From positions 1 to 36,243 of the IMG/VR virus record IMGVR_UViG_3300030090_004082: a stretch of DNA of 36,243 nucleotides; one strand, written 5' to 3'. Positions 100 through 36,243 of this stretch are shown piece by piece. A model generated the notes under the pieces. That model saw only the letters and a list, made by a program, of their open reading frames with translations, had not been told where the DNA came from and made no database searches. The translations under genes and the position numbers were made by a program. The first letter of the stretch is position 1; each line of letters opens with the position of its first letter. Source of the stretch: a virus.

Positions 100-406
100 C
101 GACCTGGTTGGTGATCCCGACGACAAGCTGGCACCGATGGCCGCGTTACTGTGCCACGAAATAGCGCACGCCATCGATTATACGGCTGGACGGTTGACCA
201 TTGACGGCCGGAGCTATGGACCAGTCGGATCCGGCCACGGTCGGAAGTGGCGGGCGATCTACCGGACCTTGCGGAACGCATACGTTGCGACAGGTAATTA
301 TAAGCCCGCGCCGACCAATAACGTGATCGAGTTCCCGGTCACAAAAACAAAAGACGCGCGGATGGATCTGATCGGCTTGCCGCTGTTCGACAGAGTCGCG
401 GCTTAA
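1..406 (+). CDS. SprT-like zinc metalloprotease (zincin), C-terminal part; continues from 35903
   Basis: This is the 3' part of a gene whose start is at 35903; joined across the circle it encodes about 215 residues. The visible part enters in frame at base 2. It has the zinc-binding motif HEIAH (residues 133-137 of the joined protein) in a helix reading LLCHEIAHAIDY, followed by a GHGRKW segment that fits the downstream histidine region of SprT/WLM-like peptidases. The family role is metal-dependent proteolysis, often acting on proteins bound to DNA. The phage role is unknown; degrading host or DNA-crosslinked proteins is an inference. It is the last gene of a three-gene cassette with an LPD29 protein and a TGT-like enzyme. 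The stop codon lies two bases before the Shine-Dalgarno sequence of the serine recombinase. Nearly all arginines are CGG, unlike the next gene. Confidence 0.85.
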   Translation, partial: VKRDRMLARLNKAWHGHAVWCEYASIAKDPEIGDLVGDPDDKLAPMAALLCHEIAHAIDYTAGRLTIDGRSYGPVGSGHGRKWRAIYRTLRNAYVATGNYKPAPTNNVIEFPVTKTKDARMDLIGLPLFDRVAA

Positions 407-418
407 CGGAGGATGGAT

Positions 419-1147
419 ATGTCCATACACACAGGGAAGTATGTGCCTTATCTGCGCGTCTCGACCGACGCCCAGGGCGCCGACGGTTACGGCATCGAGG
501 CGCAGCGCGAGGCAATCAACCGGCACCTCAATGGGGGCGATTGGGTATTGCTCGAGGAATTTGTCGAGGTTGAGTCCGGCAAGAAGACCATGCGCAAGCG
601 GCCGGTGCTCAACAAGGCGATAGCCTACGCGCTCAAGCACGACGCGACAGTGATCGTCGCCAAGATCGACCGCATGACGCGGAGCGTCGGTATCTTGCAC
701 GATATCTTAAGGTCCGGCGTGCGCATTATTTTTTGCGACGTGCCCGACATGGGCAACCCAAGCACCAATCGCCTGATCCTCAACGTGATGGCAACCATCG
801 CCGAGTTCGAGGGCGCGCGGATCTCGGAGCGCACCAAGGAGGGTCTTGGCGTCGCAAAGTCCAAGGGCAAGGTGCTCGGATCCCCGAACCCGCAAGCCGG
901 GGCGGCAGCCGCGAACCGGAAGCGCATGACAGCGGCCGACGAGCACGCGCTCGAGGTCGGCCCCAAGATCAAGAAGGCGCGCAAGGCGGGCGCCAGTAGC
1001 TACCGCGAGATCGCCGAGGCGCTCGGCAACCTGGGTATCCAGACATCACACGGCGGGTTCAAATGGCAACCGACCAGCGTGCGCAATACCGAGAAGCGGT
1101 ATGACGAATTAACAGGAGGGAGTGAAGATAATGGCGAAGGCAAGTGA
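419..1147 (+). CDS. Serine recombinase (resolvase/invertase family)
   Basis: It encodes 242 residues. The N-terminal catalytic domain shows YLRVSTDAQ with the nucleophile at Ser15, then KIDRMTRS and an EFEGARISERTKEGL segment, the conserved resolvase core. A C-terminal helix-turn-helix follows (around ASSYREIAEALGNLGI). The length is that of small serine recombinases, far shorter than large serine integrases. I chose ATG 419 because GGAGG (408-412) sits 6 bases upstream, whereas ATG 413 would abut it. The family cuts and rejoins DNA through a phosphoserine intermediate at paired crossover sites. The genome also has a tyrosine integrase, so this enzyme may resolve multimers, invert a segment or act as a second integrase. 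No crossover site was recognised. It overlaps the next gene by 17 bases. Confidence 0.9.
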   Translation: MSIHTGKYVPYLRVSTDAQGADGYGIEAQREAINRHLNGGDWVLLEEFVEVESGKKTMRKRPVLNKAIAYALKHDATVIVAKIDRMTRSVGILHDILRSGVRIIFCDVPDMGNPSTNRLILNVMATIAEFEGARISERTKEGLGVAKSKGKVLGSPNPQAGAAAANRKRMTAADEHALEVGPKIKKARKAGASSYREIAEALGNLGIQTSHGGFKWQPTSVRNTEKRYDELTGGSEDNGEGK

Positions 1148-8880: not shown

Positions 8881-11352
8881 TCATCCTGGATATTCCGGCG
8901 CGCGTTCCGGCAAGTTCTCGCCAGGCGCCCACCAATGCTTTTGGTCGAACTTCCGCCGCCGCGAACGCTCAAAACGCCGGAACGATGCGTCTGCTTTTGG
9001 GTCTACCATCTTTTTTAGATTGTCCCAGACCAGGCGCTCGAGCGCGAGGCGACCATACCAAGCACTAGACCCAGGGAAATATCGTTGCAGAAAGTTCACC
9101 GACTCACGCCCGAATTTTGTCTCCTCGCCCATACTTAGCTGATACGCGTTGCCGACCGTTAGATTTAGAAAATCGTTTAATAAGCCTACTTGCGGTCCGG
9201 CAACCGTCGCGCCTAACCCGCGCCCGTATTCGTTCCGCTGCGAGAACAGGAAGTCGCCGATGATGCCCATGCCGCCGCCGGTCAAGATTGCCTTGCCCCA
9301 GAATTTTGGATCGCTCATGTCCATCGGATCTCGACCCTTGAGCATCTCGCGGCCTTGTAGTCCGAGCCCGCCCGCGATGGCCATCGTGACCATGAAGTCC
9401 AAGCCATACTGGACCTTGTTCCCCCAGCCCTCGAGCGTCATGTATCGCTGCAAGTTGTTCTGGATAATCGTCGTCGGGAAGCTCTTGAACTGCGCGAAGC
9501 CCTCGATGATCTCACCGGCAAGCGTTCCCTTTGTTGTACCGCCGCGCAGAAAGGCGCGCGACCGTATCGTCGCTTGCGGCACCGCTTGCGTCGTTTCTTG
9601 CTCGATCATCGTTAGGATTTGCGTCGCGATCTCGCGGCCGAGCCCTGGCTTAAGATCCGTGCGGTCCTCGATGTTGGACGGGCGCACGAACTTGTTGCCT
9701 TTGTAGTCCTCGAGCTTGCTGTTGCGAATTATGTCCCAGCGGTCGGATCCGATGCCGTACTTCTCGAGCGTGTTGCGTGTCGTGTCCGGCAGATCGTCGA
9801 ACTTGCGTCCGGCCTGGTCGCCGAGCCAGCCCAGGAACTCGATGCCGAACGTCTGCCGGGCGGCTTGCGTCCAATGGGACAGGCCGACGCCGCGCAGCAC
9901 CTTGTCGGATATTTGTTGCGAAATCTCGGGACCGCTTACCTCGCCGAAAAAACGCGCCTGGCTTTGTGCCAGGTTCATCCAGTTATCAGCGCCAAGGCCC
10001 AACTTGACCCCGAACTGCGTCTTTTCTTGCGCGCTGAGCGGCGCGATGAACTGGGAGAACGCGCGTCGGATAATCCGGTTCGTTGGAATGCCCGCCATCT
10101 GCGCGGAGATCCGAGCCGTATTCAAGTCGCCAGGTATCGCAATTATAGGCACGCCACCAAGTAGCGAGGCTTGCAATGTGTTGCGCAAGGTCCCGCCGGT
10201 ATTGGCAAGCCACTCGCTCGCCGGAATGTTGCCCTCCCCCGTGAACAGCTTGAGCATGGTGTCGAACTGGTACGCGTCCGCTTGCAATGCGGCGGTCGCC
10301 TTGCGGCCGTCATTGTTCGCGATCCGCTGCGCCTCGATCTTGAGCGCCTCGATGGTGTGGCGTGGATTCGGCCCAAATGTTTCGAGTAGCGCGATATCCT
10401 TCGACATAGAGTCGATGTGCGACATCATGGTATTGAAAACGTCCGGATCGCCGAACCGCTCTTGGTAGCGCATCCAGGCATCGGCGTCCTTGAATACTAA
10501 GAATCGATGATCCATGCGCCGGTTAGCAAGCGAGGCCGGTTGCCCGGTCTGCCCTGGCTTAATTTTGTTTAGGCCGTCCTGCGCAATCGTCTCGTGTACG
10601 TCGCGGAGCGCGAGCTCGAGCTCCTGTTTCGTGAACGCGCGGCCGGTGCGCTCGTTAACCATCTTCTCGAGATCGAGTTGATCGTCCAGGAATCGGATCC
10701 ACTCGGTCGCACCCGCCTCGCGCACCAGGGTGCTGTTGTGCGTCTGTGGCAAGTTCCAGTTCTTGCGGTTGGCGATGGCCATGCCCGCCGCGTTCGCGCG
10801 TAGCCGCAAATATTCAGCGGTGTCTTTCCATTGCTCCGCGATTAGCTTTGCCGACGCGAGCCCGGTATCTTCACCGAATACCTCTTTCAAAAGATCCAGT
10901 TGCTCCGAGCGACCTTCACGCCCCGTAATTGTTTCCCGGTTTGCGCGAAGCCCGTCCGAGAACCGCGACAATGCGGTGCGCCTGGTTGCCTCATAAGTCG
11001 AGTGCAAGTTCGCGCCGAAACGCGGCATCGACTCATCGATTGCGACCATTGCCTGCAACGCCAGGCCCGGCCGCTGCGCGTCGCCAGTGACTAGGCCGGT
11101 TGTGTTTTTGAGGCGTTCTTTCGTTTCTTTAAATTTTTTGATGCTAAGTAACGCGTTCTGTTTCTTGCGCGCCGCCTCATATTTCAATTGGTCAAATGTT
11201 TCGCGCGCGGCAGCCTCGGCGGCACCTTGCTCGCCGAGCTCCTCGATCATGTCGGCGCGGTTCTGCTCAAACAGATCGCGGGCATAGCGCGCCTGGTCAT
11301 CTGTTATAGATCCCTCGCGCTGGCCGTTAATGATGCATTCGTCAAAGCTCAT
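8881..11352 (-). CDS. Large internal virion / DNA-ejection protein (823 aa)
   Basis: It encodes 823 residues. The N-terminal 120 residues are charged and helical. A long helical middle follows. The segment around 640-700 is glycine-rich and hydrophobic (MVTMAIAGGLGLQG, AILTGGGMGIIGDF), and the C-terminus is basic with FLQRYFPGSSAWYGRLALERL and RRFERSRRRKFDQKHWW. Its place after the 1289-residue protein and before the tail fibre is where T7-like phages keep gp15/gp16 ejection proteins. Membrane-active segments would suit a protein that crosses the envelope with the DNA. No enzymatic motif was recognised, and no family name can be given with certainty. TAATG overlap couples it to the gene upstream. 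Confidence 0.6.
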   Translation of the reverse strand: MSFDECIINGQREGSITDDQARYARDLFEQNRADMIEELGEQGAAEAAARETFDQLKYEAARKKQNALLSIKKFKETKERLKNTTGLVTGDAQRPGLALQAMVAIDESMPRFGANLHSTYEATRRTALSRFSDGLRANRETITGREGRSEQLDLLKEVFGEDTGLASAKLIAEQWKDTAEYLRLRANAAGMAIANRKNWNLPQTHNSTLVREAGATEWIRFLDDQLDLEKMVNERTGRAFTKQELELALRDVHETIAQDGLNKIKPGQTGQPASLANRRMDHRFLVFKDADAWMRYQERFGDPDVFNTMMSHIDSMSKDIALLETFGPNPRHTIEALKIEAQRIANNDGRKATAALQADAYQFDTMLKLFTGEGNIPASEWLANTGGTLRNTLQASLLGGVPIIAIPGDLNTARISAQMAGIPTNRIIRRAFSQFIAPLSAQEKTQFGVKLGLGADNWMNLAQSQARFFGEVSGPEISQQISDKVLRGVGLSHWTQAARQTFGIEFLGWLGDQAGRKFDDLPDTTRNTLEKYGIGSDRWDIIRNSKLEDYKGNKFVRPSNIEDRTDLKPGLGREIATQILTMIEQETTQAVPQATIRSRAFLRGGTTKGTLAGEIIEGFAQFKSFPTTIIQNNLQRYMTLEGWGNKVQYGLDFMVTMAIAGGLGLQGREMLKGRDPMDMSDPKFWGKAILTGGGMGIIGDFLFSQRNEYGRGLGATVAGPQVGLLNDFLNLTVGNAYQLSMGEETKFGRESVNFLQRYFPGSSAWYGRLALERLVWDNLKKMVDPKADASFRRFERSRRRKFDQKHWWAPGENLPERAPEYPG

Positions 11353-14300
11353 TAGGCGCAGTCCTTTAATCTATTGAGCATCGATGCGTCTTGCTCTATC
11401 TCGCGGAGCTCGTCCTCGACGCGGCGCATCTCCGGTATCTGCTTGCCTTGCGCATCCTCGAGAAAGCGCCCGGTCGGGATCATCATGTCGAGGAGATCCG
11501 ATTGCGCCCGTGCCGCTGTATCGAATAGCCCGATATCCATCGGCGCGTCGCCGCCCGTCATCGGCGCATCGACGGCCGCCTGGGCGCGCTGCGCACCTGT
11601 GATTGCCTCGACGCCTTCCATAAGCATTTGCTCCCCGGCGTCGGTAATTTCGCTTGCAATTTGCTGCGCTTGCGCCAAGTTAATAGTGGAGGTTTCGTCT
11701 ATGAGATTCTTCTCACTTGAGGGCAAATATCCCGCTGTGCTGCGGGAGGACGGCAAGGCGTTTTCCTGGTCCAATACACGGGAAGCCTGGTCCGAAATGT
11801 CTGCGCGCGAGCTCATGTCTGACACGCGCACACCTGAGCTAACCGCTTCTGAATTTGAAACGCGGCTTGCGGTTGCGGGTATTGAGCCGAGTACACTGTC
11901 GGCGATTTCAGAGAACTCCGAACCCATTTGATTCCGCGCAGCATTATATAGCTGCACCATTTCTCGATTTGCCGCTTGTATAAGCTCGTCGCCGCTTAAA
12001 GGTGCTAGGCGCGCCCGCATTTCTGGATCCGGTAATTCAGCAATGATGGCGGGCGTATCTGGATCTCCGCGCGAAATTTCATAGAGTTGATGGCCGCCTT
12101 GTGCATGCTTCGCGTCGTACAGCGCACGCTCGATAATTAAGACCTCGCCAATAACGCCATCTTTATTGATAACCATGAGTTTTTTGTCGAAATATCGCGA
12201 GCTTGAGATACCGCGAAATCCCTCATCGACAACATGATAAGACTTCGATAGCTCTTTGATAAACGCCGTGGCCTCGTCGGGCCTTGTGACCGTAATCGTT
12301 GCCCGCGATACATCCGCTATGCGATTTAGTTCGCCGACATATTTATCGTTGATCTTAGCCTCGACACGATCCCGTTCCTTTATTGGCCCCGCGACATAAT
12401 CGACCTCGTGCTCGCCAGCGGCTTTCTGCACTGCTGCATTTAGCTCGACGTTAAATGCCTCGTTGCGGGTCATAATATCGTCTATAGATGCGTAGGCCTG
12501 GCGCGACTGTAGTATACTAGCAAGGTTCTCGAGCTCGGCCTCGGTTAGATCCTGCGCCAATACCAGGCGTTTTTTCTTCGCGTCGGGACCCATTTCCAGG
12601 ATCTTTTGCGCGTTCTTTTGCGCGACCTCGGCCGCGAACTCCTGGTCCGTTAGAACGCGCGCCGGGAGCTCGGGCATACCCGCCTCGTCAGCTATGGCAT
12701 ACGTCGAGTTGCCATCGAGTAAGGTGTAAGTGCCGTCGCCGTTGTCTTTGACCGATAACGGCCCGCGCTTCGCCTTGTCGCCGAGCGCGGCCTCGGCCAT
12801 GAAGACTTTTGCGTTAGCGACGCCATCCGGTCGGCGGCGGATCGGCACGATGTCCTGAATCGGAACATCGATGCTGTCGGATGTCGGCTCGAGGTAGTAG
12901 CGATAATCCGGCGCTATCTCGCCTCGCGCGATTAGATCCTCATCGCTCGGCCGCGCCGCAATGCTTTCAACGAGCTCGCGCTCGAGCATGTCCGATTGCG
13001 CCTCGTACCCCTTGCCGCCAGGCTCGGCGAAACTGTCTAACCTTTCAACATGGCTTGCTGCGATTGAATCAATTTGCGGTGGAGCATCAACATCGATGAT
13101 CTCTCCGCGTTCTGGAATGCCGTCGAGATCGCCGCGTTCAATTCCTCCTCGGACAGCATCGGCGAAGTCTCGAGCGGCTGGGGCGGCTCGGCCTGTTTCT
13201 TTGAAGCGTTTCGCTGCTTCGGTGAGGGCGTCGGAGAGGGGGCCTTTCCGGTTCGCCGTGATTTGGAGCGTTTGGATCGCTTGGCCATCGGTTTGTGCCT
13301 TTGCTGCGTTTTGATCTGTTGAAAGTGTATTGCCACCGGCTTCGATGCGCTTTTCGTTCTGCACCAGGGAATTGAACACGGCGCGATCTTTGCGGAGGAT
13401 CTTGATCGTCTCGTCGAGAACCTTTGCGCGTTCCTTAAACAAGGACTCGACCAGCATCTCCTCGCCGAACAAAGTGTCTTGCGTGGCGACCGTGAACTCC
13501 GCGTCCATAGCCTGTCGCACGATTGCCTCGGCTTGCGTAAGGTTCGACGGGTCGGTGTCTTTCAATACGCGCAACAGCGCCATGTGTTTATCTTTGTCGC
13601 GCACCAGGCGGCCGACGATTGCGGCGTAATCCGTCCTCACAAGTTCATTGACCACCAATTGAAAGGATTCGTCAGATAGCTCCACCAGATCATAGATCCG
13701 CCGCACGAACTGCGAGCGCGGCGGGAGCTTCGCCTTTAACGCTTCCGGTCGGATCCGCATCACCTTCGCCGCGTCGATAATCATCCGCTCATCGCCTAAT
13801 GGCGTATTTGCAATGTTGACCAGTGATGCATCGATCATCGCGTCTTGAGGTGTGTGGCCGTCTGTCTCTTTTATAAGGCGCCCATAAATTTTGATTTCCT
13901 GGCTCGGGTCATTTTCCAATATCCGCTGCGCGAGGCCTAGCCGCTGGTGCCCATCCGCGATGAACCTCCGACCATTTGCGTATTCATACACGGTGATCGT
14001 GCCCGAGAGCGCCGGGTCCCAACGCGTCTCTTTCTCGAGCCGGTGCCCGGAAACGATTCCGCGCTCATCGATGCCGGATTTAAATTGGAACGTCTTCGCA
14101 TCGACCTCGATCTCTGCCGGGTCGAATCGATAGATCTCGCCATCGAGGTTGTCGTAGTGATGGACATCGAGCTCGGCGACTTCGCGCGTCGTCGGTGGTA
14201 GATCGATGCGCGGCTGCCCTTCATTGATTAGGTTAATTGTCTCGGCTGCGACGCGTTGCGCATTTTCGTTCTGCGCGTCCATGTCGCTATCTTTAAATGG

Positions 14301-15221
14301 CGAGTTGGCCGCCAGATCCACCTCGCGCTCGAGCTCGTTTAATGCACCGCGCGCTTGTTCCGGCACGTTCAAGCCATTGTCGCTCATAACGCGAAACGCG
14401 TCGGCCATCTGTTCCGGTGATAGGCGGTCTACGGTTTCAAGCATCTCGCGGCCGATAGCCCGCGCCGGATTTATCTTGTCGCCAATGGCACGCGACGCGT
14501 CGAAACCGCCTTGGCCGACGACGCGAAACCCTGCGCCCCCTACAAACGCGCCGCCGGTTGCCGCAACAAAATCGTTGAAGTCATATTTGAGCCCGTACTT
14601 TTCGCGCATCGCTGCGACGGCCGGTTGCGTGTAGCCCACCACACCGGCACTTGCGAGGCCATCAATCAACCCAGCACGAGCAAGCGCCTTGAGCCCAAAC
14701 TTGTAACTCGCGCCTATAACAAGCCCTGGCAATAGTTCCGCTGGCCCTGTCACAGCCGACTTTAATTCAGCGGCCGCGCTTCCAAGCAACTCGCCCCAAA
14801 ACCCGCCCGTCGTTTGTCGGTTTGTCGTATCAAAGTAACGCGCTTCTATTTGCGGCAACCGTTGCTTTATGCGCCGCTCGATCTCTTCTCGATCCGGCAC
14901 CTGTATCCCGAGCGGCTCGGCGCGTTCGCGTAATAGTGTTAGCTTTTCCTCGTACTCATTCCAACCGCCTGTGCGGCCTTGTATATATTCAAGCATGCCG
15001 CCAGGATTCATAAGGCGTTCGCCTGTCGCATCTTTGACTTGATCGACAATCGGCGCGAGCTCAGCGACGTAGTTTTCCTGTATCATTGTAATCGACATCG
15101 CGCGGCTAAAGCGGTCATAGCCCGCGCTCATGTTGTCAGCGAAATCCGTATCCGGGCCATCCGACACTTGCCATTGCGTGCCCGCGAAATCGTTTGAATC
15201 AATTGTGAATAGCGAGCTCAC
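11352..15221 (-). CDS. Polyvalent-type internal virion protein with two ParB-like and one RelA/SpoT-like segment
   Basis: It encodes 1289 residues. After a gp16-like helical N-terminus with a hydrophobic patch (about 155-240), a ParB/DdrB-like segment spans about 355-480 with FIADGHQRLGLAQRI at 420-434. A second, PIQDIVPIRR to LLDGNSTYAIADEAG, spans about 787-848. Residues about 940-1050 (GPIKERDRVEAKI, DVSRATITV, GEVLIIERALYDAKH, GHQLYE) resemble a RelA/SpoT-type nucleotidyltransferase fold. The rest is helical linker. Several effector-like domains in one giant protein within the ejection module match the described class of polyvalent proteins, thought to enter the host with phage DNA. The domain calls are by eye; the RelA/SpoT-like one is the least certain. 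Catalytic activity is unproven. Confidence 0.6.
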   Translation of the reverse strand: MSSLFTIDSNDFAGTQWQVSDGPDTDFADNMSAGYDRFSRAMSITMIQENYVAELAPIVDQVKDATGERLMNPGGMLEYIQGRTGGWNEYEEKLTLLRERAEPLGIQVPDREEIERRIKQRLPQIEARYFDTTNRQTTGGFWGELLGSAAAELKSAVTGPAELLPGLVIGASYKFGLKALARAGLIDGLASAGVVGYTQPAVAAMREKYGLKYDFNDFVAATGGAFVGGAGFRVVGQGGFDASRAIGDKINPARAIGREMLETVDRLSPEQMADAFRVMSDNGLNVPEQARGALNELEREVDLAANSPFKDSDMDAQNENAQRVAAETINLINEGQPRIDLPPTTREVAELDVHHYDNLDGEIYRFDPAEIEVDAKTFQFKSGIDERGIVSGHRLEKETRWDPALSGTITVYEYANGRRFIADGHQRLGLAQRILENDPSQEIKIYGRLIKETDGHTPQDAMIDASLVNIANTPLGDERMIIDAAKVMRIRPEALKAKLPPRSQFVRRIYDLVELSDESFQLVVNELVRTDYAAIVGRLVRDKDKHMALLRVLKDTDPSNLTQAEAIVRQAMDAEFTVATQDTLFGEEMLVESLFKERAKVLDETIKILRKDRAVFNSLVQNEKRIEAGGNTLSTDQNAAKAQTDGQAIQTLQITANRKGPLSDALTEAAKRFKETGRAAPAARDFADAVRGGIERGDLDGIPERGEIIDVDAPPQIDSIAASHVERLDSFAEPGGKGYEAQSDMLERELVESIAARPSDEDLIARGEIAPDYRYYLEPTSDSIDVPIQDIVPIRRRPDGVANAKVFMAEAALGDKAKRGPLSVKDNGDGTYTLLDGNSTYAIADEAGMPELPARVLTDQEFAAEVAQKNAQKILEMGPDAKKKRLVLAQDLTEAELENLASILQSRQAYASIDDIMTRNEAFNVELNAAVQKAAGEHEVDYVAGPIKERDRVEAKINDKYVGELNRIADVSRATITVTRPDEATAFIKELSKSYHVVDEGFRGISSSRYFDKKLMVINKDGVIGEVLIIERALYDAKHAQGGHQLYEISRGDPDTPAIIAELPDPEMRARLAPLSGDELIQAANREMVQLYNAARNQMGSEFSEIADSVLGSIPATASRVSNSEAVSSGVRVSDMSSRADISDQASRVLDQENALPSSRSTAGYLPSSEKNLIDETSTINLAQAQQIASEITDAGEQMLMEGVEAITGAQRAQAAVDAPMTGGDAPMDIGLFDTAARAQSDLLDMMIPTGRFLEDAQGKQIPEMRRVEDELREIEQDASMLNRLKDCA

Positions 15222-15222
15222 G

Positions 15223-18171
15223 TTAGGTGCCGCGATTGTTGTTTATAAATTGCTCGACAGTGCCGTCTCCCTTTGCGGTGTTATAGATGCGTTTCCATAA
15301 CTTTGCTTGCCCTTCTAATGTTGTGGGCAATGGGCCCCTTGCCCTGGACAATAAAAACAATCGAGCGGCGATAGCGCCGTATAACGGCTTTTGTAAATCC
15401 ACATGATTCAATTGCATGTAATCTATACCGAACTCACTTTTAATTTTTGCACGCGCTTTGCGTAGTTTGTTTGTGTTGCGGCGCGTTTCTTTGAACCCTA
15501 TGGGATCTACTTGCCAAATCCCCTTACTTATCCGGCGGAATGTTTCTGGGTTATTTCCAAAATCAGATTCGACTCTCGCGATACGCGTTAAGAACAAACC
15601 ACCACCAAACACAGCATCGACAGCACGCACCGCTGAATCGACGACAGGACGGCCTTTCGCGTTAGCTGTTTGCACTTGCTGCATTTCTTGGGTGCTCAGC
15701 TTCCGCTTAATTGCTGTGCTTGGCGTAATGTTCTGGTCGGGGAACTCCTCCGGCATATCGGACTGTATCGATTGATCCGGATACTCTTCCGTCATGTCGG
15801 GCTCTATCGATTGATCCGGATACTCTTCCGTCATGTCGGGCTGTATCGATTGATCCGGTGTCTCTTCCGTCATGTCGGGCTGTATCGATTGATCCGGATA
15901 CTCTTCCGGCGACCGGACATCGAACGATGTAGGCATAGGCTCGGGATCCGCGACTTCTATTTCTTGCAGCGCGTTAATGTCGAGCACATACGGGATCGGT
16001 GAGATATCAGGTGGAAGCTCAATGCCATCGTCATCGAATCTGCGTATGCGACTGGCGACCAGGTTCCCGCGACTATCGCGCAATGTATAAAGTCCGGATC
16101 CATAGCTTTCTAACTTGAGCCCTGGGATCATGCTTGCGGTTATTGGTTTGAGCTCGCCGGTCAATTTATTTTCATAGACAGGCGTGCCGTGCGTTTGATC
16201 TAGCGCGTTGAGATCGTCATCGGTGATTGACGCAATCGTCGCCTCGAAAGCATCCTCATCGCGAACATGGTTGCGCGGCAAAATGATTCTATCGTCGTCA
16301 TATTCAATTATACCGCCGACCGCGTTTTTACCTTTATCGGATCCGCCGACAACTTCGTGCACAATGTTTTCGAGCTTCTTTTTATCGTATTCCTCATTCC
16401 CATGTCGCGATATGTAGATTGCGCGCGCGGTCTGTTCGATATCGCCGACGAGGCCGGGCTTTTCTCTAAGAGATTGCCCAACTATTCCAGTTATATCGTC
16501 CCGTAATGCTGTCGTTTGGGTTGCTCCCAAGTTGACCTTGGCGCCACTAGCTATCGCACGGCGCCCCTCAAAATATTCAGCCGCCATGCGTTTATTCATC
16601 AGCGACCCAATCAATGCGAGATCGGTTGCGTCGGTTTGAGTTGCAATCTGCGCAAACACTTTCGGCGCATCCCGACCGGCCGCTTGAGTGATGCTTTCAA
16701 CAAGCACCGCTTGCGCCGCAATGTCTGGGTTAGATTTAGAAAATACGCTTTTTAATTGGTCGATAGATTCCTGGCTCAAATAAACCGTATCGACGTTATA
16801 AAATAGGCTTGCGTTTTTGTTGGCTGTTATATGGTCTTTTAGCTTTGCTGGGTCGGCCATGTCAGCTTTGCTCAAGGCAACTGGCGTGTCGAGCCGTTGC
16901 GCTTTGTGCAAGGCCGCAAGAGGATCTTTGATTTCTCTTTTACGTGTCGCCTCGGCCGCCTTGCGCAATCGCTTTTCTTTTTTGACCAGATATTCTGGGG
17001 TCGTTTTGTTGGCGTTTACGAACGACTGTATTTGCTTTGCGGCCCTATCGGCCGCTTCTCTGTAAGCAGCAGATCCGCCTTGCCCTATGGTGCCTAGTTC
17101 TGCATTTTCGCGCGCAAGAAAGTCAACTCTTTGCACAAGAGCCGGATCACCTAAGTCGCCCGCCTTTTTGCGCAACTCGTCTAAATCAGCGTCGCCAATA
17201 TGTCCGCCATCGCCCAATATCCCAAGTCGTCCATTTATTTCGCGATTGAGATCCTTGATCTCTGCGGTGCGCAAAGCGTCGGCTTGTCGTATATCTGTAT
17301 CAAATGCGTTTGTTAAAATCTCGATACGCAAGTCATCGATGCCACGCGCTAGACCCTTGCCGGTTTTGCGGTCCTCGCGGAACTTATTAAGAAACGCGCC
17401 CTTGTCTTTTGCGTCTCTAAACTCGCGTCGAATGCGCGCCTCGTGATAACGGTTTTTTGCCTTTGCGATATATGTCTGTATAGATTTCGGCGTTTGGCCC
17501 AGGCTTTCCATCGAGTCCTTGTAATTGACCATTGCCGCTTTGAACTCTTGGTCGCCGCCGCGAGTTGCGACCTGGCCCATGAGACCGGCGTGCTCGAGCA
17601 TACTGTCCGTGATGCTGGTTGCATCGCCGTCCAGGATCTTTTGTTGCTCCTTGATCGCGTCGGCCGACCGATCCAAGAACGCGGAACGTGCATAGCTTTC
17701 CAGCTTGGCCTGCGTGCGCGCAGCCGTTAGCGGATCCATGTCCTTGAGCGCGGACGTATAGCCGCCGATGATTGCGATCAGGCCCGCCTGGAAATCGTTA
17801 GGGTCCTGCTTCGTTTTCTTCGCTTCGATGTACGCGTTGCCGATGGCCTCGCGCGCCTTCGCCTCAACTTGAACGCCGCCAATCTTGCTCGCCGCATCGA
17901 ATGCCGCTTGGCCGTAGATGTCGGTCGGCCGCTCGCCGCCGTATTGTTCAAGCACCTGTTCCGGATTCTGGGACCCGGCGGCCGTACCCTCGGAGATGGC
18001 GGTTTGCTCGGCGCGCTTGAACGCGAAGTTCTGGACTTGCTGCGCGCGCTGCGCGAGCTCGCCGTACATCTTGCCCGTCTCGCGCATCGCGGCCTGGTCA
18101 ATGTTGGGCGGCACCTCTATCGGTTGATTGAGGCCTACCTGGCGCTGATATGTTCGGTATCGCGGTGCCAT
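15223..18171 (-). CDS. Internal virion protein with C-terminal lytic transglycosylase-like domain
   Basis: It encodes 982 residues. The first 700 are mainly charged helices, as in gp15-like core proteins. A linker at about 755-819 consists of five 13-residue repeats of the type TEEYPDQSIQPDM. The C-terminal 126 residues (from 857) look like a lytic transglycosylase: LTRIARVESDFG with candidate catalytic Glu868, then SKGIWQVDP and GAIAARLFLL. In T7 this activity sits at the N-terminus of gp16, so here it has moved to another core protein. It would open a local hole in peptidoglycan during DNA entry. The gene lies between the gp14-like gene and the 1289-residue protein. Confidence 0.75.
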   Translation of the reverse strand: MAPRYRTYQRQVGLNQPIEVPPNIDQAAMRETGKMYGELAQRAQQVQNFAFKRAEQTAISEGTAAGSQNPEQVLEQYGGERPTDIYGQAAFDAASKIGGVQVEAKAREAIGNAYIEAKKTKQDPNDFQAGLIAIIGGYTSALKDMDPLTAARTQAKLESYARSAFLDRSADAIKEQQKILDGDATSITDSMLEHAGLMGQVATRGGDQEFKAAMVNYKDSMESLGQTPKSIQTYIAKAKNRYHEARIRREFRDAKDKGAFLNKFREDRKTGKGLARGIDDLRIEILTNAFDTDIRQADALRTAEIKDLNREINGRLGILGDGGHIGDADLDELRKKAGDLGDPALVQRVDFLARENAELGTIGQGGSAAYREAADRAAKQIQSFVNANKTTPEYLVKKEKRLRKAAEATRKREIKDPLAALHKAQRLDTPVALSKADMADPAKLKDHITANKNASLFYNVDTVYLSQESIDQLKSVFSKSNPDIAAQAVLVESITQAAGRDAPKVFAQIATQTDATDLALIGSLMNKRMAAEYFEGRRAIASGAKVNLGATQTTALRDDITGIVGQSLREKPGLVGDIEQTARAIYISRHGNEEYDKKKLENIVHEVVGGSDKGKNAVGGIIEYDDDRIILPRNHVRDEDAFEATIASITDDDLNALDQTHGTPVYENKLTGELKPITASMIPGLKLESYGSGLYTLRDSRGNLVASRIRRFDDDGIELPPDISPIPYVLDINALQEIEVADPEPMPTSFDVRSPEEYPDQSIQPDMTEETPDQSIQPDMTEEYPDQSIEPDMTEEYPDQSIQSDMPEEFPDQNITPSTAIKRKLSTQEMQQVQTANAKGRPVVDSAVRAVDAVFGGGLFLTRIARVESDFGNNPETFRRISKGIWQVDPIGFKETRRNTNKLRKARAKIKSEFGIDYMQLNHVDLQKPLYGAIAARLFLLSRARGPLPTTLEGQAKLWKRIYNTAKGDGTVEQFINNNRGT
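15715..15909. repeat. Five tandem 39-bp repeats inside an internal virion gene
   Basis: Five in-frame units of 39 bp (195 bp) encode PEEYPDQSIQPDM-like 13-mers. The first four are nearly identical and the fifth is diverged (PEEFPDQNITPST). Near-identity at DNA level suggests recent expansion by slippage or recombination. The product is an acidic, proline-containing linker before the transglycosylase-like domain. Copy number may vary among relatives. Confidence 0.95.
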
Positions 18172-33866: not shown

Positions 33867-34214
33867 TCACTCCTCTATTGTTGTTTCGGCCGGATAAAGT
33901 TTCGCCCAGCGCAGCCAGCCAATAATCTGCGTCCAGGTCTCCCAGGGGAGCACGACAAGCGTCTCCTGGTTGTCGTCGCGCACGAACAGCGCGTCCGATC
34001 CGCCGCCCTGCTCGAGCGCCTTATAGAGCGTAGTGAACCCTTTGCGGCGCCGCTTGCACTCGCAAATGAGCCCGGCAATTTGCACATCGCCCGAATACTT
34101 ACCTCCGAGCGCGCCGCTGAGTGGTTGCTTTGATGCTTGCACACCAAGCGCCTGATGCGCGCGCACGACCTCGAGCTCATAACCCGAGCCCTTGCGCTTG
34201 GACCTACTGCTCAC
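33867..34214 (-). CDS. Hjc-like Holliday junction resolvase
   Basis: It encodes about 115 residues. KGSGYELEVVRAHQALGV, then SGDVQIAGLICECKRRR, gives the Glu...GD...ExK pattern of Hjc/PD-(D/E)XK resolvases, followed by ALEQGGGSDALFVRDDNQETLVVLP, also typical. It would cut branched replication and recombination intermediates before packaging. No ATG is present: TTG 34229, GTG 34223 and GTG 34214 are possible; I give the last, just outside the preceding stop codon (34206-34204). It starts inside the end of the RHH gene. Confidence 0.8.
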   Translation of the reverse strand: MSSRSKRKGSGYELEVVRAHQALGVQASKQPLSGALGGKYSGDVQIAGLICECKRRRKGFTTLYKALEQGGGSDALFVRDDNQETLVVLPWETWTQIIGWLRWAKLYPAETTIEE

Positions 34215-34389
34215 TGCGCACACCAGCAACGAAGCGCCGCGCGCGTTCGTCCAGGCGTTCGTCGATCAGCTTAGTGCGCAGTATCTTGCGACATTGCGCG
34301 GTCATGCTGCGCTCTTCACGCGCCGCCTCATCGTAAAGCGCGTCAAAGGTTTCGTCGTCGAGTCTGATGTGGATCTGCCGCGTGTACAT
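34204..34389 (-). CDS. Ribbon-helix-helix (Arc/MetJ-type) regulator
   Basis: It encodes 61 residues. MYTRQIHIRLDDETFDALYDEAAREERSMTAQCRKILRTKL has the beta strand plus two helices of Arc-like repressors. It is the first gene of the leftward block and adjoins the divergent region whose four GTGCAA repeats are natural candidates for its operators. Autoregulation and control of the leftward operon are likely inferences. Confidence 0.85.
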   Translation of the reverse strand: MYTRQIHIRLDDETFDALYDEAAREERSMTAQCRKILRTKLIDERLDERARRFVAGVRSEQ

Positions 34390-34545
34390 TTGTGTTCCGG
34401 ATGGTCAGTTGTGCAACACACGGAAGGTACGCCGTGCAAAATAATTTAACAATTGTGCAAAAAAATGTGCAAAGGCCCTTGCAAACACCAAACGTATGCC
34501 CTATTTGTTTAATTGTTCCCACAAAAAACAAGGAGGTTTCGCGAT
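34390..34545. promoter_or_regulatory. Divergent control region with four GTGCAA repeats
   Basis: This 156-bp A+T-rich gap separates the leftward and rightward blocks. GTGCAA occurs in the same orientation at 34411-34416, 34434-34439, 34455-34460 and 34467-34472, and a related TTGCAAAC follows at 34479. A leftward promoter may be TTGCAC (34472-34467) with TTAAAT (34449-34444), 17 bp apart, a weak match covered by the repeats. A rightward one may use TTGCAA (34479-34484). AGGAGG at 34531-34536 is the ribosome-binding site for the LPD29 gene, 9 bases before ATG 34546. Confidence 0.6.
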
Positions 34546-35130
34546 ATGACTATCGAATACATCGACGCGGTAGCGGTCGCCAAAATGATCCGGAAGGATT
34601 TAAAGGCCGCGTTCCCTGGTACAAAGTTCAGCGTCCGGAAAAACGGATACGATTGCGTCACGATCAACTGGACCGATGGCCCAGCCAGCGACGCCGTGAT
34701 GGCCGTCGCTAACAAGTATTCCGGCGGCGGGTTCGACGGGATGATCGACTCCGAGTATTGCAAGACCTCGTTCATTTCTCCGATCGGCGAGGTTGGCGTC
34801 GCTAAATGCTCGGGCACCGAGGCCAGCATGGGTGTGATCCCGGCTTACGAAAACGAAGTCCCGCCCGGCAGCCGGTTGGTTTCATTCAATACCAAATACA
34901 TTTTCGACAACCGGCGGATCTCTAACGGCGTCTGGATCGAAACCATCGACGCTGTTGTGAAGGCGTGGGGCTTAGATCCGGAAGACTACAAGCCGACGAT
35001 CAGGGGCAAGGGTGACGACGAGCGGTTGGTTTTGCCGTTTGGTTTTGTCCCTGCGGCCAACGAGTCATTTGATCGGTTGGCCATGCGGGAAGCCTACGCA
35101 AAAGACTACACGGGACGGGAGGCCGCGTGA
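34546..35130 (+). CDS. LPD29-domain protein
   Basis: It encodes 194 residues from ATG 34546, chosen for AGGAGG 9 bases upstream. The N-terminal 80 residues (YIDAVAVAKMIRKDLKAAFPGTKFSVRKNG, then INWTDGPASDAVMAV and GGGFDGMIDSEY) match the large polyvalent-protein-associated domain LPD29. That domain occurs in giant injected proteins and as stand-alone phage genes; its activity is unknown. The C-terminal part is unassigned. It is the first gene of the rightward block. Arginines are almost all CGG (with AGG), a bias shared with the next two genes. It overlaps the TGT-like start by TGATG. Confidence 0.8.
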   Translation: MTIEYIDAVAVAKMIRKDLKAAFPGTKFSVRKNGYDCVTINWTDGPASDAVMAVANKYSGGGFDGMIDSEYCKTSFISPIGEVGVAKCSGTEASMGVIPAYENEVPPGSRLVSFNTKYIFDNRRISNGVWIETIDAVVKAWGLDPEDYKPTIRGKGDDERLVLPFGFVPAANESFDRLAMREAYAKDYTGREAA

Positions 35131-35906
35131 TGAAACGGATCCCCGGCAGTTACAAGCGGATCATCCTGGGCACGCCGATCACTCCGGCGGCCCGGTGGTC
35201 TGAGCTCGACGGCAAGTCTTTCTGTGTTTCCTTTGCGGAGCCGAGAGACTTGGACCGGGCAATCGCAGCGGTCGGCGATAACGAGATCCTGTTACTGGAC
35301 AACGGCGCATTCAGCGCCTGGAAGCGGGGCATCGAAATCGATTGGTCGGAATATTGGGCCTGGGCAATCGATGCGATGGAGCGGTGCCCGAACGCGGTCG
35401 CCGTTATCCCCGATGTGATCGGCGGCGATCCGGATGCGAATTGGATGATGGCGGCCGAGGCCGTCCGGAAATATGTGCCACGGAAATACACCGGCCGGTT
35501 GATGTTCGTCTGGCACATGGACGAGCCCATCGATGTGTTGATCGACGCCGCGCGGTTGTTCAACTTTGTCGCCATCGGATCCTGCGCCGCGTTCGACATC
35601 ACGAAGGGCGCCAAGCCCGGCACCAAGTTCTATGAGCGGATGCGGGAAGCATGGGACGCGATTGGCGCGGTCGAGGCCTTGGGCCTGGGCGAGCGGCCTT
35701 TCGTCCACATGATGCGGGGCCTGGGCAAGTTGAAGGACTTCGCTTGGGACAGCGCCGACAGCACAAACGTCGCAATCAACTACAAGCGGTGGGCAGCGAC
35801 AAACGCGCCCACGAGCCCGGCGCCGGTCAAGGCGATGGTCGAGCGGCTGAGCTACGAGATCAACGGTGCGGCAGAGTTGCCGCTGACAATGAAGGAAGCA
35901 GCATGA
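35130..35906 (+). CDS. TGT/DpdA-like transglycosylase-fold protein
   Basis: It encodes 258 residues from ATG 35130 (GGGAGG 7 bases upstream; an overlapping GTG at 35127 is less likely). ILLLDNGAFSAWKRG, AVIPDVIGGDPDANW, FVWHMDEP, FNFVAIGSC and FAWDSADSTNVAINY follow the barrel motifs of tRNA-guanine transglycosylases and the phage DpdA enzymes. The zinc-binding CxCxxC cluster of bacterial TGT is absent, as in short DpdA-like proteins. DpdA inserts 7-deazaguanines into DNA, protecting it from restriction; this is the favoured role. No preQ0 synthesis genes are present, so the precursor would come from the host. Sixteen of 17 arginines are CGG and one AGA. The stop overlaps the zincin start (ATGA). 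Confidence 0.7.
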   Translation: MKRIPGSYKRIILGTPITPAARWSELDGKSFCVSFAEPRDLDRAIAAVGDNEILLLDNGAFSAWKRGIEIDWSEYWAWAIDAMERCPNAVAVIPDVIGGDPDANWMMAAEAVRKYVPRKYTGRLMFVWHMDEPIDVLIDAARLFNFVAIGSCAAFDITKGAKPGTKFYERMREAWDAIGAVEALGLGERPFVHMMRGLGKLKDFAWDSADSTNVAINYKRWAATNAPTSPAPVKAMVERLSYEINGAAELPLTMKEAA

Positions 35907-36243
35907 ACATCAACACGATGATACGGGAGATCTCGGACATTGCCGTCGCGGAGGGCTTGGTCGATGCGTCCTGGCCCTCGACGCTGCGGGTCAAGTTGCG
36001 GAAGCGGAAAGGGACCAGCTACGGCGGCAAGAAAGACGGCACGCCTTGGATCAACATCGCGACGCCCTCGACCTGGCACTACACGCCAGGCGAGATGAAA
36101 CTGGTCGAGGATTGCTTAAAGTCCTGGGGCAATGCCAAGCCTGGCGTCAAAAGGGACCGGATGCTGGCGCGGCTGAACAAGGCCTGGCACGGGCACGCGG
36201 TCTGGTGCGAGTACGCCAGCATTGCCAAAGATCCGGAGATCGG
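35903..36243 (+). CDS. SprT-like zinc metalloprotease, N-terminal part; continues at base 1 of the circle
   Basis: It starts at ATG 35903, overlapping the stop of the TGT-like gene. The reading frame runs off the end and joins in frame with 1-406. The N-terminal part (MNINTMIREISDIAVAEGLV, then a strand with SYGGKKDGTPWINIATPS and WHYTPGEMKLVEDCLKSW) precedes the zinc-binding half. The last 99 bases are the duplicated overlap. See the entry at 1-406 for motifs and role. Confidence 0.85.
   Translation, partial: MNINTMIREISDIAVAEGLVDASWPSTLRVKLRKRKGTSYGGKKDGTPWINIATPSTWHYTPGEMKLVEDCLKSWGNAKPGVKRDRMLARLNKAWHGHAVWCEYASIAKDPEI
36145..36243. repeat. Terminal direct repeat (circular contig overlap), right copy
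   Basis: This is identical to bases 1-99. The length of 99 equals a k-mer size commonly used in metagenome assembly, and the repeat lies within a gene with no regulatory sequence, which favours an assembly overlap over a packaged terminal repeat. Confidence 0.95.

Follow-up and report, generated by a model that had tools for sequence, protein, structure and literature searches.

The genetically characterized reference for base exchange in phage DNA is DpdA of phage 9g, which inserts preQ0 into DNA and whose His196 has been named as a DpdA marker (PMC6884629). Besides such pathway-encoding phages, a class of singleton DpdA enzymes has been described (group 3 of Hutinet et al., 2019), with representatives in phages 7-11 and MED16, in which no synthesis genes were found. 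The DNA of MED16 contains dADG (PMC8306585), and that of phage 7-11 contains ~50 dADG per million nucleotides, about 0.02% of G; for the singleton class, modification status has been described as hard to predict (PMC6884629). The same fold occurs in bacterial and archaeal TGTs (1iq8 and Zymomonas TGT) and in Cap10 of type IV CBASS, which acts with Cap9 on a protein N-terminus, and deazaguanylation by Cap9/Cap10 has been reported (PMC11996544). The LPD29 domain is known from polyvalent proteins, large injected polypeptides of many domains, whose MPTases were described with a Glu ligand (PMC5512222). Here, we describe a phage operon in which an LPD29 protein, a TGT-superfamily enzyme, and an SprT-like protease are encoded by overlapping genes.

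The window is the whole 36,243-nucleotide IMG/VR record IMGVR_UViG_3300030090_004082. Because its terminal 99 bp repeat exactly (positions 1–99 = 36145–36243), it represents a circle of 36,144 bp. The join is right because the SprT reading frame crosses it uninterrupted as one frame of 215 aa, and its homologues align across residues 1–214. The phage is of marine type, and in gene content it looks like a temperate podovirus, with a T7-like connector, internal virion proteins, a terminase, a RecE-like exonuclease, and a tyrosine integrase. The virion region also contains two huge genes at 15223–18171 and 11352–15221 (982 and 1289 aa, respectively); the sole PHROG match of the 982-aa product is C-terminal and to a PHROG of unknown function.

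All genes of the operon lie on the plus strand. The gene for the solo LPD29-domain protein (194 aa; 34546..35130) starts with ATG at 34546 behind the ribosome-binding site AAGGAGG and overlaps the gene for the TGT-superfamily enzyme (258 aa; 35130..35906, ATG at 35130 and stop at 35906) by 1 nt in TGATG. The latter overlaps the SprT-like gene by 4 nt in ATGA. The SprT-like gene begins with ATG at 35903; its N-terminal part (residues 1–113) occupies 35903..36243, and the remainder, including HEIAH (residues 133–137), H160, and the C-terminal GLPLF, occupies 100..406. A serine recombinase (420..1147; PF00239, E 5e-28; ATG at 420 or in-frame ATG at 413) begins a few bases past the SprT end. Because of the two overlaps and this short spacing, translation is likely coupled along one operon, with these four genes as its minimum content. 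The operon heads the rightward block and is divergent from a ribbon-helix-helix gene at 34204–34389, across an AT-rich intergenic region (34390..34545) that carries the LPD29 ribosome-binding site and in which a promoter scan found no sigma-70 consensus. The opposite block is a replication block encoding the ribbon-helix-helix protein, a PDDEXK nuclease, a small protein, and a Toprim/AAA primase–helicase. The GC contents of the LPD29, TGT-like, and SprT genes (0.57–0.62) gave no signal of foreign origin. The layout thus agrees with the first-pass annotation, which had placed three overlapping genes at the head of the rightward block and followed them across the circle to position 406, and the identities it gave them are borne out by PF18847, phrog_887, and a conserved HExxH with a third His. 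A gene at 1122–1787 encodes a 221-aa product without a Pfam match; its GC content is 0.48 versus 0.58, and identity to the homologues from two close relatives is just 29%, whereas the adjoining recombinase is 91–94% identical.

The TGT-like protein had no Pfam match. It was assigned to phrog_887 (E 1e-28), the PHROG to which 9g DpdA also belongs (E 2e-98), and a profile alignment of the two by hhalign gave a Prob of 96.4 over 153 columns. In this alignment, the DSGAF/DNGAF and WHMDEP/FHAGEP motifs, the His of "VHG", and the DS nucleophile motif coincide; residue 196 of the 9g enzyme is His and pairs with H193 of the window enzyme. D57, D95, H129, and H193 are invariant across 64 TGT-family sequences, D210 is present in at least 90%, and these five residues are candidates for the catalytic site. 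The CxCxxC zinc motif of TGTs was found in 0/167 family members, nor does 9g DpdA have it. The AF2 model (pLDDT 91.8) adopts the TGT/DpdA barrel fold, with archaeosine TGT (Z score 15.6), Cap10 (9ntn; Z score 15.6 over 226 residues), and DpdA (7ui4; Z score 14.2 over 225 residues) as matches. Foldseek alone ranked aldolase-type barrels on top, and re-alignment lifted the TGTs; a PDB sequence search with TGT profiles yielded chance matches only, whereas the fold search worked. Single-sequence scans of viral contigs likewise gave no match for TGT or LPD29, and alignments were required. The family profile also matched the MED16 enzyme (225 bits) and the 7-11 enzyme (175 bits), both of which share small size and DpdA-type residues with the window enzyme, although identity to them is ~30%. 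Compared with the DpdA enzymes of 9g and slur01, it is ~60 aa shorter, and the FolE/QueD/QueE/QueC genes and the clamp gene of those phages were not detected in the window phage. On the basis of sequence and model, the gene encodes a DpdA of the small singleton type and thereby adds a new member to an enzyme family already known from phages.

The barrel and the conserved Asp residues are also those of bacterial and archaeal TGTs (sequence identity 7–13%), and phrog_887 carries the name "queuine tRNA-ribosyltransferase". The enzyme might then act on tRNA, altering the queuosine status of the host and tuning translation during infection. This is improbable: the zinc site of those TGTs is missing throughout the family, the DpdA His is present and invariant instead, and relatives of the enzyme sit in phages with dADG in their DNA. 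The tie of Cap10 for the best structural match raises a second possibility, that of a protein-directed Cap10 relative whose target, bound or edited, would be a protein N-terminus carrying a deazaguanine, for instance in a counter-defence to type IV CBASS. Cap9/Cap10 chemistry offers a precedent, but the identity to Cap10 is 11%, the sequence is closer to DpdA, fold similarity establishes no function, and the window shows no CBASS genes (neither Cap9 nor CD-NTase genes were among its annotated proteins). We regard this as the least probable of the readings considered.

The most probable activity of the enzyme is to replace guanine in DNA with a 7-deazaguanine that the host makes or that is salvaged. 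We infer DNA as the substrate, as well as the identity of the base and the protective effect; the dADG in MED16 and 7-11 is a correlation seen in relatives. In the proposed mechanism, the TIM-barrel enzyme would take guanine out of phage DNA via a covalent Asp–deoxyribose intermediate, 7-deazaguanine (preQ0 or a derivative) would be inserted in its place, and mild protection from restriction would be the expected effect. Given the dADG level in phage 7-11, the activity of singleton DpdA may be low or partly directed to another target.

When the major ORFs were scanned for enzymes that could supply the base, the best 25 of 37 Pfam families included none for 7-deazaguanine synthesis. Because no synthesis genes were detected in the phage, the host or salvage would have to provide it. 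The preQ0 transporter YhhQ (YhhQ/Vut_1, PF02592) was present in 53/166 TGT loci and adjacent to the TGT gene in 41; after removal of near-duplicates, it was present in 33 and adjacent in 23 of 100. It occurred in 0/80 LPD29 loci, a control unmatched for host or phage type, and was not found in the window. Some of the phages surveyed by Hutinet et al. had YhhQ, with no correlation with phage group; in our loci, it tracks the small singleton-DpdA subfamily and is its recurrent partner. This family-wide linkage suggests base salvage, although bacterial YhhQ serves tRNA queuosine too, a point for the tRNA-directed alternative. PAPS reductase was considered as a constant TGT partner and rejected, being present in 28/166 loci and adjacent in just 4 non-redundant ones. 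On a Bradyrhizobium plasmid (L024:4570–5687), the TGT-family gene overlaps a gene for a nucleoside 2-deoxyribosyltransferase, and L182 is similar.

The SprT-like protein scored 18.6 bits against PF10263, under the curated cut-off of 25.6. Nevertheless, H133, E134, and H137 of the HExxH motif and the third ligand H160 are invariant in 13 homologues, and HExxH with a later His ligand is the arrangement of SprT/SPRTN; the window protein is a putative zinc metalloprotease. Human SPRTN has a PCNA-binding peptide, and a clamp-like C-terminal peptide occurs in the long relatives of the window protein. The 13 homologues come from as many IMG/VR contigs, of which 11 carry a homologue of the serine recombinase; on the opposite flank, the primase is common to several. 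What precedes SprT differs between contigs: small unrelated genes occupy the slot in six (L002, L004, and L011–L014), it is empty or nearly so in L008 and L010, and LPD29 and TGT are absent from it in all 13. In the close relative L003 (2025–2930), a PAPS-reductase-like gene (phrog_424), of the family present in 28/166 TGT loci, directly precedes SprT. SprT belongs to the core genes of these phages, and LPD29 and TGT fill the variable slot ahead of it. The protein probably works on or near DNA, as a protease or in repair, and by analogy with the SPRTN family, it may act on DNA–protein crosslinks.

The LPD29 protein matched PF18847 with 74.8 bits (cut-off 27; E 9e-21), and its AF2 model has a pLDDT of 94.8. 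A fold search gave weak BON/BolA-like matches only (best Z score 6.8, all under 8). Viral contigs typically encode LPD29 as a stand-alone protein of ~190 aa, in many cases close to recombination genes of the YqaJ or ERF type, and it is solo on hundreds of plasmids. It appears to be a common solo early or accessory protein. In the IncN plasmid pTR4 (L023, 242–4438), a solo LPD29 protein shares a 4.2-kb stretch with antirestriction genes and a protease of the SprT family.

The first-pass annotation had proposed that the three genes form one counter-defence or DNA-modification unit, in part because LPD29 and metallopeptidase domains both belong to polyvalent proteins, and had named the lack of co-occurrence elsewhere as a refuting result. 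The polyvalent-protein argument is weak. The LPD29 domain is shared, but LPD29 is normally solo in phages and is solo on many plasmids, the window encodes three separate proteins of 194–258 aa, and the third ligand of its protease is an invariant His and not the described Glu. In the neighbor search, this SprT family occurred in 0/166 TGT loci and 0/80 LPD29 viral loci. A wider SprT scan covered 51 loci, including repeats, and TGT or LPD29 accompanied SprT in the window alone. LPD29, counted with our own LPD29 profile, was found in 3/166 other TGT loci (L026, L175, and L194), and TGT in 1 of 80 LPD29 viral loci; PF18847 gave no match over 50 TGT records, controls included, and this result was not counted as absence. 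L026, with a terminase 58% identical to that of the window, comes nearest to this layout; there, TGT heads the rightward block, and a weak LPD29-like protein of 91 aa lies two genes beyond it. No locus besides the window had all three genes in the collections searched, which are incomplete, so that a rare three-gene unit known here from one record could escape them.

A true three-part counter-defence unit would fit the overlapping start and stop codons and the single orientation, the distance of 0.5–2 kb between LPD29 and TGT in L026 (where the LPD29 match is weak), L175, and L194, and the IncN plasmids in which LPD29 and an SprT-like gene lie ~3 kb apart in an antirestriction region. Against it, the three genes meet in the window alone among the loci searched, and each has a separate partner set elsewhere. 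The unit is already largely refuted by the co-occurrence counts, and we consider it very improbable. The single-cassette reading is not supported, and the trio is not a conserved unit. DNA modification stands as the best reading of the TGT-like gene, with its DpdA His and phrog_887 membership, but not of the trio jointly. LPD29 and TGT may share a preference for early accessory regions without a fixed partnership. The operon would then be a chance meeting of modules and no dedicated three-part device: a small singleton DpdA that swaps DNA guanine, a core SprT, and a common solo LPD29. We favor this interpretation and judge it reasonably probable.

A new and unexpected lead came from the C-termini. 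TGT-family proteins end in a Q-[ML]-[ED]-L-x peptide whose surrounding sequence varies (71/99 members; mean of 14.3 for shuffled tails). Under stricter redundancy removal, 52/75 divergent members had Q..[LM] within their final 16 residues, compared with 6.3% of 1213 other proteins from the same loci (Fisher p 3e-39, ignoring shared descent). Several DpdA enzymes of the preQ0 pathway end in QELF (Quinobequin and R7M), MELF (slur01), or QMELF (VPv64), and dpdA adjoins or lies near a phage beta-clamp gene in 9g, slur01, R7M, RHph_I36, and JY38. This placement of dpdA, immediately next to or close to the clamp gene that the phage itself encodes, was seen in five phages of unrelated hosts (loci L263, L301, L303, L305, and L306). 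The tails of the long SprT relatives are GLPLF, QEGLF, and QLDLF, and that of the window SprT, GLPLF, is a partial match to the consensus. The accepted consensus for C-terminal binding to beta is QLxLF, established for transposases (PMC4549789); no paper linking DpdA with the clamp was found in the literature searched.

These patterns would suit a replisome-coupled set in which the DpdA-like enzyme and SprT both dock on the beta sliding clamp via their C-terminal peptides, so that guanine exchange and the clearance of DNA–protein crosslinks, including stalled DpdA–DNA covalent intermediates, take place behind the fork. For the window itself, the picture is weaker: the tail of its TGT-like protein, ELPLT, is degenerate, the motif is absent from the MED16 and 7-11 enzymes, SprT and TGT are not together elsewhere, short SprT forms have no tail, and short motifs are no proof of binding. 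We therefore hold the coupled set to be possible but doubtful. Because of the ELPLT tail and the lack of the motif in MED16 and 7-11, the clamp and fork claim is limited to the family. In this broader form, the phage DpdA family and the window-type SprT family would be clamp-docked and act at the fork on newly made DNA, and in this phage, SprT could also clear DpdA–DNA covalent intermediates; we put it forward tentatively, as a rather unlikely proposal.

In the operon of this phage, a speculative three-part weapon is replaced by a testable placement, that of the TGT-like gene among the singleton DpdA enzymes. No report on how phages direct guanine exchange to the DNA that they newly make was found in the literature searched. 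The clamp-like tails, if confirmed, would reveal the means of this targeting.
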